Source: Desulfurococcales archaeon
Lineage (GTDB): Archaea > Thermoproteota > Thermoprotei_A > Sulfolobales > Fervidicoccaceae
Reading direction: 5' to 3'
NCBI GenBank assembly: GCA_009904015.1
Contig: WYEQ01000002.1
Location: 1 to 64,000 of the forward strand
Length of the DNA stretch: 64,000 nucleotides
Shown here: one piece after another, positions 32,246 to 41,742 of the stretch
Position numbering within the stretch: the stretch's first letter is position 1
Layout: every line of letters starts with the position of its first letter
Program-made: the position numbers and the translations under genes
Notes under the pieces: model-generated
What the model saw: only the letters and a program-made list of their open reading frames with translations
Told to the model about the DNA's origin: nothing
The model's database searches: none

Positions 32246-33695
32246 TCGAAACAAAAACAGTTGTTCAAAAGAAAGTACTAGGGAACCTTCTCTATACATC
32301 GAACAATCATTAAGAAGCCGTATAGCTTAAGTTCTTTTCTTTAGTTTTTAATTTTTCTTCTTAACGTTCACGTCTTCAAAAGATGCGTTAACGCAAAACC
32401 GCAAACTTTTATATTCAATATAATTATAACAATTATAAAATAGCTACATAAGACACATCTATAACTAAAAACTGTTTTACTCTTTATCAAAGGTCCCTTA
32501 TTGGCAATCTCGGCATTCCTGTAGCTTTATATGTCTCAGTTCCTTTAGGTTATGTGAACAGTAGAAGCATTGTGGAAGATGTTCTACTAAGCATGACGAC
32601 CATATAGCCAACCCAGACATTCGTCAGGGCGTAACCGTTACATTTACAATCGAGTACTACTACTAGCCTTTTAATCTAACTTTTCGTCAAGGCTCCTATA
32701 CAAATCACTTTTGCTTTTTGCCTAGCCTATCCACTTTTGGGGAGGATCCTCCCTCCCGATAGAGCGATGCTTCCATAGCTTTTCCCGAGCTTGGATAGGC
32801 TCGATGGGCTTTTACTCACAAGATGAGAGTTGAGGAGCTATGTTTCCTTATAGACAATAAGAATTAGGAAGAATTAGGAGGATCTCTCCATGGTTGCTCA
32901 TGGTTGTGCATGGGAGTTCTGTACTATGATTAGTCCCCAAACGTTTGATACCATTCTATATGAGGCAGTTTCGCATGGTTGCTCATGGTTTCAATGGTTT
33001 CCATGGTTGAGCATGGAGTGTTTTTCAAAGCGTTTGAAAACAGGCAGAATTATGGGGGATCCCTCATGTAGTGATGACTTCTTTAGATTTCCCCAGACTT
33101 TGAAGATTCTACGAGGAGCATTAATCTATGGGGGTGGGATGCTCTCCATGAGCAATTATAAGCAACGGATGTGAACTGTTAATATCAACCATAAGTAATA
33201 GTTTCTGCAACTAGTATGAAACCATGCTCAATCATGCTCAACTAAAATTACACAATTCCAGTTTCTCATGAAACTATCTTAGCTAAACCTATTAGGTAGC
33301 TTGATTTAGCCATGCAGGTTGCAGCCCAGATGTTCCACGCCTTTTTTCTTTTAATTTAGCTTGCAAGCCCAACATATCAGAAGCGAGCATGGTCTGGGAG
33401 GATCCCCACTCTTATTTGCGCATGAAGCATTTGCGCTTGATTGCCATGGCAAATAACGAGGTACTCATTTAGAAACAAATAATAGCAAGGGGGATCCTCC
33501 TCCGATGAAGCTGTATTTCCATCACTTCTTCTCAGATAAGGAAGAGTCGATTAGGAAAGTTGCTATTTACTGCTTGTAGGGGATTCGTAATAGTAATTGT
33601 AAGTTTTCAAATCAAACATGCAAGTGAAGTGAAAAGAGTAGCAGTAATTCGAATAGTAATCATACCACATACTATCAGAATTAGTTTAAATGCAG
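32246..33695. other. 1.45-kb gene-poor accessory stretch
   Basis: No convincing gene. A 94-codon open frame at 32890-33174 runs through the repeats and is probably chance. 32485-32605 on the plus strand reads IGNLGIPVALYVSVPLGYVN before a stop and may be a scrap of a lost gene. Short motifs recur: CATGGTTGCTCATGG and its variants (see the repeat entry) and GGATCC centres in G/C runs at 32746, 33059, 33400 and 33492. The region borders the restriction-modification genes and looks like integration debris. Confidence 0.6.
32889..33242. repeat. iterated CATGGTTGCTCATGG / TTGAGCATGG motifs
   Basis: A 17-base exact direct repeat at 32889-32905 and 32974-32990 (85 bases apart), a variant CCATGGTTGAGCATGG at 33001-33016, and inverted forms CCATGAGCAATTATAAGC at 33146 and AACCATGCTCAATCATGCTC at 33220-33239. 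All share T-T-G-C/A-G/C-T/C-CATGG. No regular spacing as in CRISPR. Confidence 0.6.
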
Positions 33696-34841
33696 TTATT
33701 TCTTAAACCAATTAAGAATACTCGATTGCCGAGATACTGATTCCTCTTCTTCGTCTTCAGACTCCTCTTTTCTTCGGCTCGTTCTTTTTCCAACCCGCGA
33801 TTCTTCTAAAATACGATGCATTACATCGAGTTCGAGCTTTATAGCCTTGTAAAGCTCGCTTAGCTGTTCATCAGACCATTTAAGCCCTACCATCCTAAGT
33901 GCTATTCTATCAATCTTCTTCTGTAACTCTGACCCTGAAGAATACCTTGAGTAAAGTGATTCGAGCCCTTTCTCGATCTTTGCAACCTCGTTAAATATCT
34001 GCACAGCCTCATTCAGTACATCTTTAGGCAAGGACTCCAGACCTGGAACATATACGCCAGCCCATACGTCCTTATCAAACCTGACCCAGGCACCCTCGGT
34101 TTCGACAAATAGGGAGAGGAGCTGGAATAGAGCTAGCGTGCTGTTGAGGTATAGGGCCAGGGCTTTCACAAGATCCCTATCGAGGTTTCTAGGCCTAAGG
34201 ATGTTCATGGTGGCCGGCGAAAGCATTCTATTCGAGGAGTATAGGGCTGTGAAGTAAACGTTTGGAGACGTTACTCTAAATCTCCGCACAAGGAGTATTT
34301 CACCGGAGTACCTATCGTATGCATCCCTGATATCCTTAGCGGCCTCTCTGACGCTATTGTAGTCTACCAGACCAAGGGACTTAAACAGTTCCGGGCCTAC
34401 GGAAGCTGGGTTAACTAAGGCGTACTCCTCCCTACCGGTAAGGTCTAGGTACCTCACACCGGCAACAGACCTCAGAGCCGGTACTACATCCTTAAGCCCT
34501 ACCCTTATGGTGGTTCCGCCTCTAACCACTTTGAGGAGTATTATCCCCCCTTCTACTCTCTCAAGGTCGAAGAGTACCTTCCCGCGGGAGCCGTACCTCC
34601 TTATGAACAGCCTGGTGGCGTAGCCCTCCACGTGCTTACCCCTTGCCGTAAATTGTCCGGGGTTGTAGTTGTGTATCTGGATCAACCCATTCGACTCTAA
34701 GTCTCTAAGTATAGGGAGCCCCGACAGCTCCCTAGCTATTTTCTCGTAGAGCCTGTAGGCCTCTACGGTGTGAAACGCTACCAGGGGCTTGAGGTTGTCT
34801 ATCCTAGCCCTAGCGACCTCGGCCACGTTCCCCAGCTTCAC
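33696..34841 (-). CDS. target-recognition/specificity subunit of a split type IIG-like R-M system
   Basis: 381 residues. The C-terminal half has the segment ALALYLNSTLALFQLLSLFV followed by a long coiled region (residues 285-345) and an acidic, lysine-ended tail; lone-asparagine-serine segments of this type close the recognition domain of Eco57I/BREX-like methyltransferases. The N-terminal half (RRFRVTSPNVYFTALYSSNR) fits a target recognition domain. It overlaps the methyltransferase-nuclease gene by 4 bases (ATGA), so the two form one enzyme. I infer the role from that coupling and the motif. Confidence 0.68.
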   Translation of the reverse strand: MKLGNVAEVARARIDNLKPLVAFHTVEAYRLYEKIARELSGLPILRDLESNGLIQIHNYNPGQFTARGKHVEGYATRLFIRRYGSRGKVLFDLERVEGGIILLKVVRGGTTIRVGLKDVVPALRSVAGVRYLDLTGREEYALVNPASVGPELFKSLGLVDYNSVREAAKDIRDAYDRYSGEILLVRRFRVTSPNVYFTALYSSNRMLSPATMNILRPRNLDRDLVKALALYLNSTLALFQLLSLFVETEGAWVRFDKDVWAGVYVPGLESLPKDVLNEAVQIFNEVAKIEKGLESLYSRYSSGSELQKKIDRIALRMVGLKWSDEQLSELYKAIKLELDVMHRILEESRVGKRTSRRKEESEDEEEESVSRQSSILNWFKK

Positions 34842-36787
34842 TGCGTCGAAGTCCTCCCCCTGAGTATCTGATCCCCGCTCTCCGTAAACCTCCTAACGGA
34901 TTCGGCGACCTCGTGCTCCCTACCTTTTAATTCATCCAGTCTCTTCTTCAGCAGTACGATAACCGTGTAGGGGCTAACCTCCTGCGGGGGAACCTTCCTA
35001 AACACCACCAGGTAGTCCCTGTAGGAGGCTCCCTCGCTAAACGCCACCTGCCTAACCGACTTAACTATGTACACAGGTACGTAGACCCTGCCCAATGCCC
35101 CAGATCTACCGGCTACCTCACCAAGTAGGAGGTATCTCCTAACGCTCTCGGCACTACTGCCAACGAAGAACTCCTCAGGAGTTACTGCCGCGAGCTTGCC
35201 TCCCATTTTTATCACGTTATCGGCAGCGGTAAAGAAATATGCCCAGTAGCCTACTTTCCCCCTCACGATTTTTCCTAAGGCTTTTTCTAATTTGGCTCTT
35301 TCGCTTTCAGGTATTCTTTCTCTTCTAGTGAATGGCGGGTTCATTATAACTAGGTCGAAGCTCTCGAGTGCTAGCTGGTGTTTCAAGTACTTCTCTTTAT
35401 CCTTTGTTATCCACCACTCTATTAGAAAGCGCTGTGGTAGTGGATCGTCTTCTGGGTTTTCAATCGCTGTTATCATTTTCTGTATTCCATCTCCCCAGAA
35501 TACCCTAGGTTCTACCGGTGTCTCAACATGTTGTAGCGAAAGGTTTATGGATGAAAGCTCCTTTGCAAATTGCATTACGTCTATTCCAACTATGTGCTTC
35601 TCCAAGAAGACCCTATGGGTGTCAGACCTATCCAATCCCTCCCCTAGAGCCTTCCTCATTTTAGCCTCGTATGCAGAGACTAATAGAGTTCCCGATCCAC
35701 AGGCGGGATCCAATACTTTTTCATCCCATCTCTCAATAGCTAGATATGCTAAAAGTCTTGCTGCAATGGGGTTTGTGAAAAACGCGCCCAGGTTCTTCCT
35801 GGTTTCTGGTGGAAGCCCCTCCTGGTAGATCCTGCCAAGCAATTCCTCGTTTACATACTCGGGTTTTAACGCTTGTATTGAGTAAATATACCGTGATAGC
35901 GTGTAGTTTATTCTCTCCTGTGGTAAGCTGAGGATATCTAGAATGTAAATGAGTGGCTCAGCGATGAACCTATACTCAGTGTGTAAGGGACTCGTCTTAA
36001 TGTTTCTTTCTATAATGCCGAGAGTGCCTTGAGGGGGCGAAACAGGGTTTTCTATGCTTGGTAGAACGCTTTTTCCAAGTCTTTTTACAGAAGCTATGTG
36101 TAGAAACAGTAGGCTAAGAACAACTATGTAAGCCATTATGTCTGCTATATAAGTCTTTATTATTTCCTCATTTTCAACAAGATCCTCGAGGAGAGATTTA
36201 TAGAAGTCGAATCTACCAATAACAGCTTGTGCCTGGTCAAATAGTTTTGGATCGGTCATTATGTATTGTCTTATAGCTCCCGCAAGCTCTTCTATTGTCT
36301 CCCTGGATACTAGTGCTATTGTTGTATAGTCTACAATTGGTTTCCTCGCTATTTCAAATTCTTTTACTGTTTCGACGACTAATCTTAGAAACTTTTCAAG
36401 CTCTATATCTTCAGAGTGTCTAGATGCCCAGCTGGTTAGAAGAATGCCTCTCTTCACACGTATCTTGGGTGCGGCTTTTTCTAATTCTGTTGGGTAGATC
36501 CTCTTAGCTTCTGATGGCAGGAGAAGGAGGAGGACTCCCGAACCTTTTGACGTAGCTATAGGATATATCTTGGCCAAGTCATCTAGTAGCTTTCTCTCGC
36601 TATCTATTTTAACTTCCACTAGAATTCTGTGACCGTCAAGTTCCAGTAGTACATCAGGATATTTGCCACCAACACCTATCTCAGAGACCCTCACCACTTT
36701 TACTCCGAGCTCTTCGCTAGTCTTTTTGGCAAGCTCCATAATAACTGGGTAGAAGCTTCGCTCTGTGACAGAGTCGCTTGAACTCAT
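34838..36787 (-). CDS. N6-adenine methyltransferase fused to N-terminal PD-(D/E)XK nuclease (type IIG-like)
   Basis: 649 residues. N-terminal nuclease: YPDVLLELDGHRILVEVK with D45, E58 and K60 in the PD-x(n)-E-x-K pattern. Central helical part, then the gamma-type methyltransferase: GAFFTNPIAARLLAYLA, motif I VLDPACGSGTLLVSAYE (D360) and motif IV NPPF (N483-F486). The usual C-terminal recognition domain is missing and is coded by the next gene, so this is a type IIG enzyme split in two. It would methylate one strand of an asymmetric site and cut nearby. ATG 36787, no obvious ribosome-binding site. Confidence 0.85.
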   Translation of the reverse strand: MSSSDSVTERSFYPVIMELAKKTSEELGVKVVRVSEIGVGGKYPDVLLELDGHRILVEVKIDSERKLLDDLAKIYPIATSKGSGVLLLLLPSEAKRIYPTELEKAAPKIRVKRGILLTSWASRHSEDIELEKFLRLVVETVKEFEIARKPIVDYTTIALVSRETIEELAGAIRQYIMTDPKLFDQAQAVIGRFDFYKSLLEDLVENEEIIKTYIADIMAYIVVLSLLFLHIASVKRLGKSVLPSIENPVSPPQGTLGIIERNIKTSPLHTEYRFIAEPLIYILDILSLPQERINYTLSRYIYSIQALKPEYVNEELLGRIYQEGLPPETRKNLGAFFTNPIAARLLAYLAIERWDEKVLDPACGSGTLLVSAYEAKMRKALGEGLDRSDTHRVFLEKHIVGIDVMQFAKELSSINLSLQHVETPVEPRVFWGDGIQKMITAIENPEDDPLPQRFLIEWWITKDKEKYLKHQLALESFDLVIMNPPFTRRERIPESERAKLEKALGKIVRGKVGYWAYFFTAADNVIKMGGKLAAVTPEEFFVGSSAESVRRYLLLGEVAGRSGALGRVYVPVYIVKSVRQVAFSEGASYRDYLVVFRKVPPQEVSPYTVIVLLKKRLDELKGREHEVAESVRRFTESGDQILRGRTSTQ

Positions 36788-36799
36788 TGCACCTCCCTT

Positions 36800-36919
36800 T
36801 TATCTAACATATATTTTTATTATATAGCTCTTTCTTCTGCCTTCAGGGTCTACTTGCCAACTAAACCTAACACCACACTTCGAGCACTCACAATAGTTGA
36901 CTTCCCACCACATATACAT
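36800..36919 (-). CDS. 39-codon zinc-knuckle-like small ORF
   Basis: Reads MYMWWEVNYCECSKCGVRF and a further 20 residues; a C-x-C-x2-C pattern could bind zinc. Only 12 bases before the methyltransferase start on the same strand. Could be the tail of a degraded larger protein; an unrelated frame just upstream reads PYCWYEG. Low support. Confidence 0.3.
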   Translation of the reverse strand: MYMWWEVNYCECSKCGVRFSWQVDPEGRRKSYIIKIYVR

Positions 36920-36973
36920 CCAATTCCTTATGAGCCCTCATACCAGCAGTAGGGACGCCTGACATCATCGATA

Positions 36974-37231
36974 CTACCATTCTTCTGCCCTAATTCTTCT
37001 CTCAAGCTCCTCAAGCCTCTCCAACCTCTTAGAATCGAGTAGGGAGGTCCTATCTGTTCTAATTTGAACTATTAGCATTAGGGCCTCATCCTTAGAGACT
37101 CCGAAGGCCCCTTTTAAAACACCCATGACCCAGTTTATATTCGATGCTCGCTTCTTAACGCCTCAAACATATTCTTCAATAACTCCTCTAGCCCTCCTAA
37201 GCCTCCACTCCCCGAAATTTAGTTTGCTCAT
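36974..37231 (-). pseudogene. small protein gene interrupted by an in-frame TGA
   Basis: ATG 37231 follows AAGGTA. The frame codes MSKLNFGEWRLRRARGVIEE, then TGA at 37165-37163, and continues in the same frame for 62 codons (VKKRASNINWVMGVLKGAFG, then a charged helix ending LEELERRIRAEEW) to TAG at 36976. Composition is protein-like on both sides, so one 85-residue helical protein has been cut by a nonsense mutation. Not recognised. It may have been part of the restriction locus. Confidence 0.5.
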
Positions 37232-37575
37232 TACCTTACCACATATACAACTACATTTTAATAATTTAAATATGTTTTAATAACTTAAAAAATGCTCTAT
37301 AGCTTATCTGACGCTTAATGGTAAAGGAAGATTAAGTAGTAAGTATAATAAGCTAGTTTTCGAAGAATACGTAATATATAATAAAGACATAGTAAAGAAA
37401 ACCAAAGTTGCAAATATATTAGAAAGATTTGGGCAATGCTTATCAAGGCATAGTGCTATGCAAGCTAGAAGATCACGAAAATATATAAATAATCATTTAA
37501 ATAGTTTTAATTTCAATATAAAGATTTCTTGATAAAAGAAAAGATGCTTTGGGGGTATGATTGATTATTTTAAGG
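37232..37575. other. AT-rich intergenic stretch
   Basis: About 340 bases, very AT-rich, with no start/stop pattern of a gene on either strand. Separates the restriction locus from the GHKL unit. Nothing else seen. Confidence 0.5.
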
Positions 37576-38193
37576 TTAAGCTATTTCTTCTTTTCCTGGT
37601 TCACTTTTGAATTCTTCGAATTCAATGATAATTCTGGGAACCTTATCTTTTAAGGCTTTAAGTATATAAGGTGCATCGGGGCTGAGGCGATTGAAGTATG
37701 GGTCTAATATGTGTAATCGATATAAGTATCTGCAAAGCTCTTCCTTCACTGCATTGGGCAGAATCTCTCCTATGAGAATTTGATATAGTCTAAATATTTC
37801 CTCAGCTATATTCTGAGATAAATCCCTGATATTTTCAAACATCAATAAAGCTATAGCAACTATATTTTTAACTAAAGGGTCCAATTTATCAATAATGTCT
37901 AAAGCATCCCTTATGAGATACTGACGCAGTATTAATCTCTTAGCCTCTACAAGTCTCTTAGCGTCACCCGGAATGCTACTTACGCCGGCTTTTTTCAAAT
38001 CCTCTATAACTTCTAAGCATGGCTTTAAGGAGCTGAACTTTAGCAATATATACCGACAAGCAGCATCAAATCCATGTTCAACGATGTAACATAATGACAC
38101 GGCCTTCTCTACAGAGCCTTCGCTTAAGTATTTATCTATCAACTCATCTATTGCTTTAAGTGTTTGAAGCGACTCGGCTATCTGCTCACTCAT
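37576..38193 (-). CDS. all-helical partner protein of the GHKL ATPase-nuclease, unknown
   Basis: 205 residues, almost entirely helix-forming, with no known motif that I recognise. It reads ESLQTLKAIDELIDKYLSEG at the start and holds scattered cysteines. It overlaps the upstream 944-codon gene by 8 bases and so is co-translated with it; this tight coupling suggests a dedicated partner, perhaps an adaptor or inhibitor. The sequence has the same AT-richer base use as its partner, unlike the GC-richer core genes. Confidence 0.7.
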   Translation of the reverse strand: MSEQIAESLQTLKAIDELIDKYLSEGSVEKAVSLCYIVEHGFDAACRYILLKFSSLKPCLEVIEDLKKAGVSSIPGDAKRLVEAKRLILRQYLIRDALDIIDKLDPLVKNIVAIALLMFENIRDLSQNIAEEIFRLYQILIGEILPNAVKEELCRYLYRLHILDPYFNRLSPDAPYILKALKDKVPRIIIEFEEFKSEPGKEEIA

Positions 38194-41020
38194 CCCCTAA
38201 CACCTCGCCATAGTTTTTAATATCCTTACCATGAAACTTAATCCAAGTAACTAATTTTACCGGGTTCCTTAGAACCCACGCCCTCGGGTTATTAGGTATG
38301 CTTTCGACCACTGTAAGCCAATACTTATCCTTTAGCTCCATCGCGGTTTTTACCTCACTCTCTGTTAAATCAACTTCTAACTCATTAATACTTTTTCTCC
38401 TCCCCTTAATCTCTACACATATTATTTCCCCATTTACATCAATCTTAAAGTCACATTCGCCACCTTTATTAATAATCCTGTATCCTTTTTCACCAAGTTT
38501 ACCCTCAACAAACCACTCAGCAAATCTTTCAATAACTTCACTGCCAACGCTATCCTTAACCCCTAGAACCTCTACAAAGAATATTTTCCAATAAGGTCTC
38601 GCATCGGGATTTTTTACGTACTTTGGACTAACAAAAGGACCTACTGAAAAGCCCCTAGCTTTCCATTTACACCACAGCTCAGTAGCACTATAAACATCGT
38701 GTAACAGTAACTGGTCTGAGTATGCAAAGCTATCCTCATCTGTAACAAGCTTAACCCTAACCCTGTCCCATTGAGCTTCGGACGAGTACCAATACAATCT
38801 ATACAGTAATCTGACAAGTTTTATGTTATCGTCAATAGAGGTTTCTTCCAAAGCCTCTTTAATCTTATTAACAAGGTCCCAGACATATCCACGTAGAGTA
38901 CAGAGCCGGCGAGAGTAATAGTACTGGCAATCGTATAGTATATAGCCTCTTACAACATTAGCAAAAAATATTGCCCAACCGCCAACATCACCATCATACC
39001 TTTTATAAGCATCAATATCTAGTAACTCGACGTTCAAAATCTTTGCAACGTCCTCAGAATCTATAAAGAGCTCGGGATTCCAAACATTATCTGATATTTC
39101 GATACTTCCTTCCTTTGTTAACACCCATATAGGTCCAACAATAACTATACCTGCTTGCTTAACTAGAAGTGTCGCAGCAAGTAGCTTCTCCCTGTCCGGT
39201 GGAGGATTCCTTGCAACAATGTGTTCTAAGATTATTTTCTCAGCAATCTCCTTCAAACTAACTTCTTTAACACCAAACCACTTAAGAATTACTTCATTAA
39301 TAAGTTTCATCATTTCCTCGTGAACAAAGTCCAGAGACTTTAGATAGTTATTTACTTCGGGAAACTTCTTGCCAATCTCAATAATGTGTTCTGGTATTTT
39401 AGGAATGTACACGTTACTGGCAAGCTTCAGTTCTCCAGGAGATGTTACAATAAAGCGTTTCTCAGGCGGTATATTAATTTTTATTCCGTAGGCTAATTCA
39501 TAAACTTTGCTCAATAATGTTATACTCCTGCTCATAAAAGCCCTAAGCAGATTTTCATTAAGAAGATCTACCAAAGTTAATTTAGATACTTTATCTTCGT
39601 CTGCCTTACGTAATTTTAATTCTGAGTCTAAAATATGCTTCTCAACACCATAGATATACCTAAGGTCTCCCTCGTCAAGAAGGCCATACTTAATAATTTC
39701 GTAAACCTCCCCAGAAGCTTTCACTACCTGGCTTAATCTAACTTCATGCCCCTTGTAACAAAGCACTACTGGATCGTTAAGAACTTCATCAATGGTCTTG
39801 ATGATGTATGGCTCTATAAACTTGTACCAGATTTCGTCGCCTAGAGGTTTGTAGTCAAAGACCATTAGGTACGATTTCTTATACTTCTTCATAAGATAAT
39901 TGATTGTTGTCTTTAAAAGCTCAGCAATACATTGCATCATCCATTGATTCCACTTAGCCTCAACATTTATGTACCTTCTACCAGGGTGAACAATGAAGTC
40001 TGCTTGAATAAGAAACTTGAGGCCAGTTTTAACCTCTGTTAATGGTAGAAATGAGTACATAAGCCAGAACCGGGTCTCCTCAATAGGCTTTAAGTCATCT
40101 GTTCCGGGGTCTAACTCAAATGCTACTGCCACTTCTCTCTTTATGACATCGCTCCTCTTAGCCTTTACACTCACAGGATCCATCCTAATATTTTCAGGGA
40201 CCTTAAACTCTTTCTTAAACACTAAGAAGTCGCTCCATGTGGGGGCGCTTCCATCCATAAGAACATGAACTCTTATAACTCTTACCTTCACATCATCAAA
40301 TTCTTCCTCTTTTTCTACAGACCACTCTATTCTCTTATGCTTATTGTTTACATAATCGCTAATCAAGATTTTGTTTACGTGGTCTAGGAATAGAAAGATT
40401 GAAGGCGTCAATTCGTCAAGCACTTTAGCTATTTCATTGCTTAGAGATGAATTCTTGAAATATACAGTGAATCTGGTTTCATCTTTTGGTAGGGTTTCTG
40501 TTGGTTCAGTTGGTATTGGTGTTAACTGCCATAAAACTTCCTCCGGCTTCAAATTATAATTCTTCAAGATTTCATGCGCCTCAGGTCTTTTCCAGAAGTC
40601 TTCGTTAAACTCGAAGCATGTATCAGCGGAACATACCTCTACATGGTTAGAGACCTTGTATACAGATTTCCATCCAATACCTATGAAGCCTTTATATCCA
40701 AGCGCGGGCTTCTTCCTACTCGCAATAGCACATAAACTCTCAAGATCCTCCTCAACAAATGGCTTGCCATTATTACTTATGACAACCTTATCTCTATAAA
40801 GCTCAACCTTGAAGTACCCTTTTTTGCCAGCCTCCATCAAAGCATCTTCAGCATTCTGAAGGAATTCCAAGATAAATTGACCAGGCTCAATATACATGAG
40901 CTCGGTAAGAAGGTTAGATACAGTCCTAAGACTTTCAGCCTGTAGTCTGTAAGCTGGGTTTTTTACAAAATTTAACCAACGTTCCTGAATCTCCAGCACC
41001 TTGCTCCTCAAATAAGGCAT
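38186..41020 (-). CDS. sacsin-like GHKL ATPase with C-terminal PD-(D/E)XK nuclease, putative defence protein
   Basis: 944 residues. N-terminal Bergerat-fold ATPase of the sacsin/HSP90 type: N-box LEFLQNAEDA (51-60, N56 and D59), G1 box ISNNGKPF (81-88), G2 box GYKGFIGIGWKSVYKVSNHV (108-127). A long middle part of unknown fold follows. At the C-terminus GGECDFKI...ICVEIKGRR gives D857, E870 and K872, the DUF3883-like nuclease core, followed by the usual ELKDKYWLTVVES and RNPVKLV. The protein thus joins an ATP-driven clamp to a nuclease. Its low-GC sequence, the R-M locus beside it and the coupled helical partner suggest defence against foreign DNA; the target and trigger are unknown. Confidence 0.83.
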   Translation of the reverse strand: MPYLRSKVLEIQERWLNFVKNPAYRLQAESLRTVSNLLTELMYIEPGQFILEFLQNAEDALMEAGKKGYFKVELYRDKVVISNNGKPFVEEDLESLCAIASRKKPALGYKGFIGIGWKSVYKVSNHVEVCSADTCFEFNEDFWKRPEAHEILKNYNLKPEEVLWQLTPIPTEPTETLPKDETRFTVYFKNSSLSNEIAKVLDELTPSIFLFLDHVNKILISDYVNNKHKRIEWSVEKEEEFDDVKVRVIRVHVLMDGSAPTWSDFLVFKKEFKVPENIRMDPVSVKAKRSDVIKREVAVAFELDPGTDDLKPIEETRFWLMYSFLPLTEVKTGLKFLIQADFIVHPGRRYINVEAKWNQWMMQCIAELLKTTINYLMKKYKKSYLMVFDYKPLGDEIWYKFIEPYIIKTIDEVLNDPVVLCYKGHEVRLSQVVKASGEVYEIIKYGLLDEGDLRYIYGVEKHILDSELKLRKADEDKVSKLTLVDLLNENLLRAFMSRSITLLSKVYELAYGIKINIPPEKRFIVTSPGELKLASNVYIPKIPEHIIEIGKKFPEVNNYLKSLDFVHEEMMKLINEVILKWFGVKEVSLKEIAEKIILEHIVARNPPPDREKLLAATLLVKQAGIVIVGPIWVLTKEGSIEISDNVWNPELFIDSEDVAKILNVELLDIDAYKRYDGDVGGWAIFFANVVRGYILYDCQYYYSRRLCTLRGYVWDLVNKIKEALEETSIDDNIKLVRLLYRLYWYSSEAQWDRVRVKLVTDEDSFAYSDQLLLHDVYSATELWCKWKARGFSVGPFVSPKYVKNPDARPYWKIFFVEVLGVKDSVGSEVIERFAEWFVEGKLGEKGYRIINKGGECDFKIDVNGEIICVEIKGRRKSINELEVDLTESEVKTAMELKDKYWLTVVESIPNNPRAWVLRNPVKLVTWIKFHGKDIKNYGEVLGDE

Positions 41021-41160: not shown

Positions 41161-41742
41161 TTAGATATAATCTAGATACTTTGAGTAGTGCTTATCTGTC
41201 ACGTCTAGTATTTCTTCGTATTTGGCTTCAGAGATCATTAGTTCTCTTGACCCACTCCGTATGAACCTGGCTACTTCCTGGGCATGGCCTTTTCCATGAG
41301 CCTCCGCGCGATCTTCCTCATGTGTTTCGGCAGAAACAGTTCATGTTTGCATATGTATTTCTCAAGCAGTCTTTTATTAATGTCTTCGTCAGCGTGATTC
41401 TCAAGAAGCCTTTTGGTCTCGAATGAGAAGCATATTCACTCGCATGGCTTAGCCGTCTCTTTCAGGCCAAAGTAGTGCTTGCAGAAGCCTTTGTCATTGA
41501 TGCAGGCAAGCCTTAGGATACCGTAATCAAGCCCGTTTATCTCTTTATCTTCACCATCTCGCTGGACCTGTAGTTCTTAATGAGTAAAAAAGTATAGGAG
41601 AGGCTGAGCACTCCTCAAGTATTAGTCTATATACAAGGTAGTACTGTTCTTGCCTCTCCCTCAGGAATTTCATTGTCTTTTTCAAATCATCAAGGGTTAT
41701 CGGGTAGCTCCTCACGTCAAGCCTGTATCTCCTGCTTGGCAC
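41161..41742 (-). pseudogene. decayed gene of about 190 residues
   Basis: From ATG 41742 the frame reads RRYRLDVRSYPITLDDLKKT to SLRTTG (41575), then shifts to another frame (EINGLDYGILRLACINDKGF, KPCE, stop, CFSFETKRLLENHADEDINK, LPKHMRKIARRLM), then shifts again to GHAQEVARFIRSGSRELMIS and ends at 41161. At least two frameshifts and one stop. Cysteine pairs remain. Not a family I recognise. Confidence 0.6.

Follow-up and report, generated by a model that had tools for sequence, protein, structure and literature searches.

A compact TmtA-like ATPase-nuclease with an overlapping small partner gene in a Desulfurococcales archaeon: a candidate archaeal variant of the Tiamat defence system

Introduction

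Two overlapping genes, one for a 944-residue protein with an ATPase and a nuclease end and one for a 205-residue protein, lie in a 64,000-nucleotide stretch of archaeal DNA, which is called the window here. A sequence-only reading of this DNA had proposed the pair as a candidate new defence system. The locus raises two questions, whether the pair serves defence and whether it is new.

The reading that we prefer, at a probability of about 0.6, is a compact archaeal variant of Tiamat (TmtA) on an integrase-linked mobile island beside a restriction-modification (R-M) locus, working by ATP-gated DNA cutting together with a small adaptor or regulator. The family match and the neighbours of relatives give good support to a role in defence and to the GHKL-plus-nuclease architecture, whereas the claim of newness fell, as the large protein belongs to a superfamily already catalogued in PADLOC. 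What is new is the partner, together with the compact size; the main enzyme is of a named kind.

Results

The gene pair and its duplicate

The pair comprises the following features.

38186..41020 (-), TmtA-like sacsin/Hsp90-type ATPase-nuclease of 944 aa (ORF list, profile matches and alignment)
37576..38193 (-), predicted all-helical partner of 205 aa, from an unnamed Thermoproteota family of about 200 aa (ORF list, duplicate and profile searches)
38186..38193 (-), 8-bp gene overlap ATGAGTGA, common to the 944-aa and 205-aa ORFs

The coordinates of both ORFs, their minus-strand placement and the 8-base overlap, as first described, were all borne out. A second intact pair was found on contig C3 of the same genome, with the same gene order, likewise overlapping genes, and identities of 55% for the ATPase and 42% for the small protein. 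This recurrence within one genome indicates that the pairing is more than chance. The comparison of the two pairs by the Nei-Gojobori method resulted in pN values of 0.29 (ATPase) and 0.40 (small protein) versus saturated pS values of 0.87 and 0.82, respectively. Since pN lies far under the saturated pS, strong purifying selection acts on both genes at the protein level. The possibility that the small gene is a chance ORF was ruled out by the duplicate and by this selection.

Domains and catalytic residues of the large protein

The motifs of the sacsin-type ATPase and of the C-terminal D-E-K nuclease of the DUF3883 type, both named in the sequence-only reading, proved to be real. The NCBIfam model NF047352 (sacsin N-terminal domain) matched residues 48-129 above its cut-off (58.8 vs 50 bits), Pfam NOV_C matched residues 855-913, also above cut-off (33.4 vs 22.1 bits), and Pfam SACS scored just under its cut-off (26.6 vs 32.8). 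We read NOV_C as a DUF3883-type nuclease because several relatives are annotated as 'DUF3883 domain-containing protein' in plasmid records.

Conservation was assessed by aligning 18 relatives, drawn from archaea, bacteria and one phage contig; 17 of these relatives reach the C-terminus. The Bergerat residues E52, N56, D59, G111, G114 and G116, together with D341 and R348 in a QADFxxxPGR motif, are invariant in all 18, and the nuclease residues D857, E870 and K872 are conserved in 17/17. These residues map to the window as follows.

40844..40867 (-), Bergerat N-box E52-x3-N56-x2-D59, general base and Mg site (18/18)
40673..40690 (-), Bergerat glycine-rich lid G111-x2-G114-x-G116 (18/18)
39977..39979 (-), R348 of QADFxxxPGR, candidate Hsp90/sacsin middle-domain arginine (18/18; proposed by analogy with sacsin, PMC9880540)
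38282..38458 (-), NOV_C (DUF3883-type) nuclease core D857/E870/K872 (Pfam NOV_C, 17/17, PD-(D/E)xK order in the model)

In an alignment to Hsp90 made by eye, the adenine-side Asp of Hsp90 is replaced by N or H in the TmtA-like family, so that nucleotide binding by the family is predicted and not to be taken for granted. The ATPase activity of sacsin itself was long disputed (PMC9880540). The AF2 model of the 944-aa protein is mediocre (mean pLDDT 56) and good in the N-terminal third only. Foldseek with this model returned Hsp90 N-terminal plus middle-domain structures (E about 1e-8, probability 1.00), and the modelled C-terminus, to be read at that mean pLDDT, runs helix-strand-strand-strand-helix-strand, which is the order of the PD-(D/E)xK core.

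Region 581-683 of the TmtA profile matches twice in the protein, at window positions 38525-38839 and about 38960-39220 (-), which suggests an internal duplication of a module of about 100 aa before the nuclease.

Relation to Tiamat

The ATPase had been said to match no named system; this was refuted by TmtA profile matches that extend from the ATPase end to the nuclease. The PADLOC TmtA profile PDLC03972 matches residues 27-687 with an E-value of 4.8e-82, and the last 255 aa, scanned alone, match positions 1217-1298 of its 1302 positions (E 9.7e-15), which shows a nuclease of the same kind at the end of the TmtA profiles. These matches place the large protein, as a compact form, in the TmtA (Tiamat) superfamily, which was named in 2022 and has already been reported from archaea. 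An N-terminal TmtA match alone is unspecific, because the same family also gives matches in control genomes such as E. coli, probably through Hsp90 proteins; judged by the profiles, the full-length pattern from ATPase end to terminal nuclease is specific for TmtA.

As in TmtA, the sacsin-type GHKL N-terminus, the middle region and the C-terminal nuclease of the window protein all align with the profiles. The differences are a length of 944 aa versus PADLOC profiles of 1063-1782, the lack of a central part of about 550 positions in the best model (668-1217 of PDLC03972 unmatched), and an overlapping partner gene that is covered by no TmtA model. Because the central region is missing, the protein was filed as a compact TmtA variant and not as canonical TmtA. 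Tiamat is a single-gene system, whereas the 205-aa partner overlaps the ATPase gene in both copies of the present genome; solo relatives exist. PMC13321033 places Tiamat in 20/382 complete archaeal genomes and credits it to Millman et al. 2022. Tiamat is described as being of unknown mechanism (PMC10482375), so family membership does not supply one.

Distribution of the ATPase relatives

ATPase-region matches were patchy, occurring in 6/229 genomes of the class besides the present one; one of the six is decayed (G107) and two are cut by contig ends. The contigs of G043 and G037 end inside the ATPase gene, and the G107 relative can be traced to about residue 595 only, which makes it unusable for linkage to the small gene. 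G314 carries a full-length solo copy of 1065 aa. Solo copies of about 830 aa are present in Dehalococcoidia, Phycisphaerae, Ignavibacteriae, other Chloroflexi and one viral contig, and thus in Chloroflexota, Planctomycetota, Ignavibacteriae and a phage contig. In the tree, the window pair groups with G043 and G314, sister to the bacterial clade of about 830 aa. A scan of genome contigs with a single-protein query led nowhere.

The prediction of a 205-aa gene behind every ATPase is contradicted from both sides. The small gene is absent in most archaeal relatives checked and in the bacterial solo homologues with flanking sequence, and most relatives of the small protein do not adjoin an ATPase.

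In one viral contig (L047:7911-10394, IMGVR_UViG_3300032770_001058), a TmtA-like ATPase-nuclease of about 830 aa lies among apparent phage structural genes and is a candidate phage-carried defence gene.

The 205-aa partner

The 205-aa protein has no significant match in Pfam, NCBIfam, PADLOC, PHROGs or PDB sequences, and viral-contig scans and a plasmid search with it led nowhere. Stepwise profile searches recovered relatives in G242 and G332 and then in G453, G294 and G422, all of about 200 aa, with genome-level E-values of 1e-13 to 1e-16 for the last three. Four of these five members stand away from any ATPase. In G453, the small-family gene heads an operon with 404-aa and 624-aa genes, homologues of which immediately precede a TmtA-like ATPase gene in G123 (E 4e-14 and 7e-12); the present genome gave no match to the 475-aa G123 protein. 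As the members are mostly solo and once in the 404/624 operon, the small protein appears to be a mobile accessory and not an obligatory subunit. Additionally, a haloarchaeal (Halorussus) gene that shares 4 bp with the gene of a sacsin-DUF3883 ATPase showed a weak match to the small-protein profile (E 0.0024 among 2886 ORFs, with the best reversed-sequence decoy at 0.08), which we take as a lead.

Two further observations concern the surroundings of this family. The genes found in G453 (L079:1204-4273) and G123 (L033:7400-10660) form an unnamed archaeal pair, whose first protein measures 404/475 aa and whose second, with a PD-(D/E)xK-like C-terminus, measures 624/609 aa. In one of its two occurrences the pair is linked to the small-protein family, in the other to a TmtA-like ATPase. 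In G294, a protein that appears FtsZ/tubulin-like by eye is encoded directly downstream of the small-family protein (L080:3146-4279).

AF2 prediction from the single sequence gave an all-helical 205-aa protein with a poor pLDDT of 54.5. The C-terminal pattern looks like a winged helix; with so poor a model, this reading draws on the sequence pattern only, and the Pfam, PHROG and PDB sequence searches returned no wHTH family match. As a tentative and somewhat doubtful extension, the small family might be an interchangeable DNA-targeting or sensing adaptor common to several archaeal defence operons (TmtA-like here, the 404/624 genes in G453). If true, this would amount to an unrecognised multi-gene Tiamat class in archaea, in which the adaptor chooses the target and the GHKL clamp fires the nuclease.

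Genomic surroundings and mobility

Three neighbouring features bear on the setting of the pair.

41161..41742 (-), remnant of an SSV-type (Phage_integr_3) integrase (C-terminal part, decayed), immediately preceding the ATPase gene (recognised from intact relatives)
34838..36787 (-), type IIG-like PD-(D/E)xK and N6-adenine methyltransferase protein of 649 aa (neighbouring locus)
33696..34841 (-), 381-aa gene overlapping the methyltransferase, a possible specificity subunit by its position

The broken gene at 41161-41742 corresponds to the C-terminal part of a protein of about 440 aa that is intact in relatives (E about 1e-51), where it is an archaeal phage integrase (Phage_integr_3). In G043, the ATPase gene is immediately preceded, in the same orientation, by an open integrase frame of 339 aa (L028:14638-15657, +), which is 64% identical to the intact one of G024. 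Taken with the window remnant, this gives two genomes in which an integrase is followed by a TmtA-like gene. The GC content is 0.34-0.40 in the 37-43 kb stretch vs about 0.50 around it. A 20-nt direct repeat at 33019 and 42673 (85%), flanking the low-GC region, was rejected because it is at chance level by our own estimate.

The 649-aa protein has N6-MTase/Eco57I matches, and its PD-(D/E)xK-like N-terminus was read from sequence; the 381-aa protein has no family match in the libraries searched. A methyltransferase protein followed by an overlapping gene fits the split type IIG R-M locus described in the sequence-only reading, which was also right about several broken genes, one of them being the integrase remnant. 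Between the methyltransferase and the pair, positions 36800-37276 (-) hold the remains of one or two small genes, seen as short, stop-interrupted frames, one of them encoding a CxxC pair.

The surroundings of the relatives are of the defence type. The G051 relative is accompanied by pAgo, a helicase and a methylase, the G123 relative adjoins a Piwi-domain protein, and the Sulfuricurvum plasmid relative lies beside a Qat system. A DUF1156-type methyltransferase is found near the relatives of G342 and of the Haloarcula/Halobiforma plasmids, in the latter together with DUF499.

Discussion

Proposed working and alternatives

The architecture, the intact catalytic residues, the operon overlap, the duplication under purifying selection, the defence-type neighbours and the integrase remnant are established at the level of sequence. 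By analogy, the pair probably protects the cell by cutting invading DNA; for ATP gating, DNA as the target, an adaptor role and an anti-viral function, we infer the following course. On ATP, a dimer of the sacsin/Hsp90-like N-terminal and middle domains would clamp shut over foreign nucleic acid or a virus-made structure, and this closure would license the C-terminal D-E-K nuclease to cut the invading DNA. The 205-aa protein would be an accessory translated along with the ATPase-nuclease, which it may recruit or restrain; its likeliest role is that of a small DNA-binding adaptor or regulator, possibly of the winged-helix type. In VcSduA, a fusion of a GHKL ATPase and a PD-(D/E)xK nuclease, mutation of either site abolishes protection, and phage is restricted without killing the host (PMC12137116). 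As both sites are needed there and the host survives, ATP-controlled clamping that licenses DNA cutting appears likeliest by this analogy.

We consider it unlikely that the pair is instead an abortive-infection module. In such a module, the ATPase-nuclease would detect infection and break down DNA or RNA of both host and virus, and the 205-aa protein would inhibit it in the manner of an antitoxin until infection brings about its release. The overlap between genes for a large enzyme and a small helical protein and the intactness of both pairs would suit such a module, whose solo small-protein relatives would be regulators; however, the solo ATPase homologues of about 830 aa without the small neighbour family imply that an inhibitor is not generally needed, and the GHKL-nuclease precedent VcSduA spares its host.

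The 205-aa protein as effector, for instance a diverged HEPN RNase switched on by the sacsin-like ATPase, is a distinctly improbable reading. Sacsin has a HEPN domain (PMC3710099), located at the terminus of the animal protein, and the partner is predicted to be all-helical, with R155 and H161 of an R-x5-H pattern identical in both ATPase-linked copies. The pattern is, however, absent in five other family members, no library gave a HEPN match, and two shared residues are not unlikely by chance at 42% identity; HEPN identity was rejected because R-x4-6-H is not conserved in the family. Equally hard to sustain is protein quality control by a sacsin/Hsp90-like chaperone whose NOV_C is no nuclease: the N-terminal and middle domains are Hsp90-like and NOV_C is named after the protein NO VEIN, not after a nuclease, but the D/E/K residues are conserved throughout (17/17), relatives adjoin R-M, pAgo, Qat and DUF499/DUF1156 genes, and the distribution is patchy and integrase-linked.

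With the compact Tiamat variant and ATP-gated DNA cutting as the preferred reading, the locus bears on Tiamat, which is among those named defence systems that lack a known mechanism. The compact form of 830-944 aa retains all catalytic residues without the central region and lends itself better to biochemical and structural work than the proteins of 1,300-1,800 aa. If the partner is an adaptor, it would offer a first handle on target choice by sacsin-type ATPase-nucleases. The finding would tie the Hsp90/sacsin ATPase lineage to archaeal virus defence.

Comparison with other known systems

VcSduA, the GHKL-type Shedu protein earlier called paraMORC3, likewise joins an N-terminal GHKL ATPase and a C-terminal PD-(D/E)xK-type nuclease in one chain. 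This likeness is a resemblance in working and not membership, as the VcSduA nuclease is DUF4263, its GHKL domain is of the paraMORC kind whereas that of the window protein is of the sacsin kind, and VcSduA is a single gene. Membership in Shedu was ruled out by the Pfam scan of the 944-aa protein, which found NOV_C and no DUF4263.

The Hsp90-like repeats of animal sacsin share the ATPase subfamily (NF047352, SACS) and the candidate middle-domain arginine. To our knowledge, sacsin carries no NOV_C nuclease, and unlike the window protein it is a huge eukaryotic chaperone-like protein. The SNF2 helicase-DUF3883 proteins of DUF499/DUF1156-type R-M operons have the same C-terminal nuclease type and similar neighbourhoods; their motor is an SNF2 helicase, whereas the window protein has a GHKL switch instead (PMC3710099).
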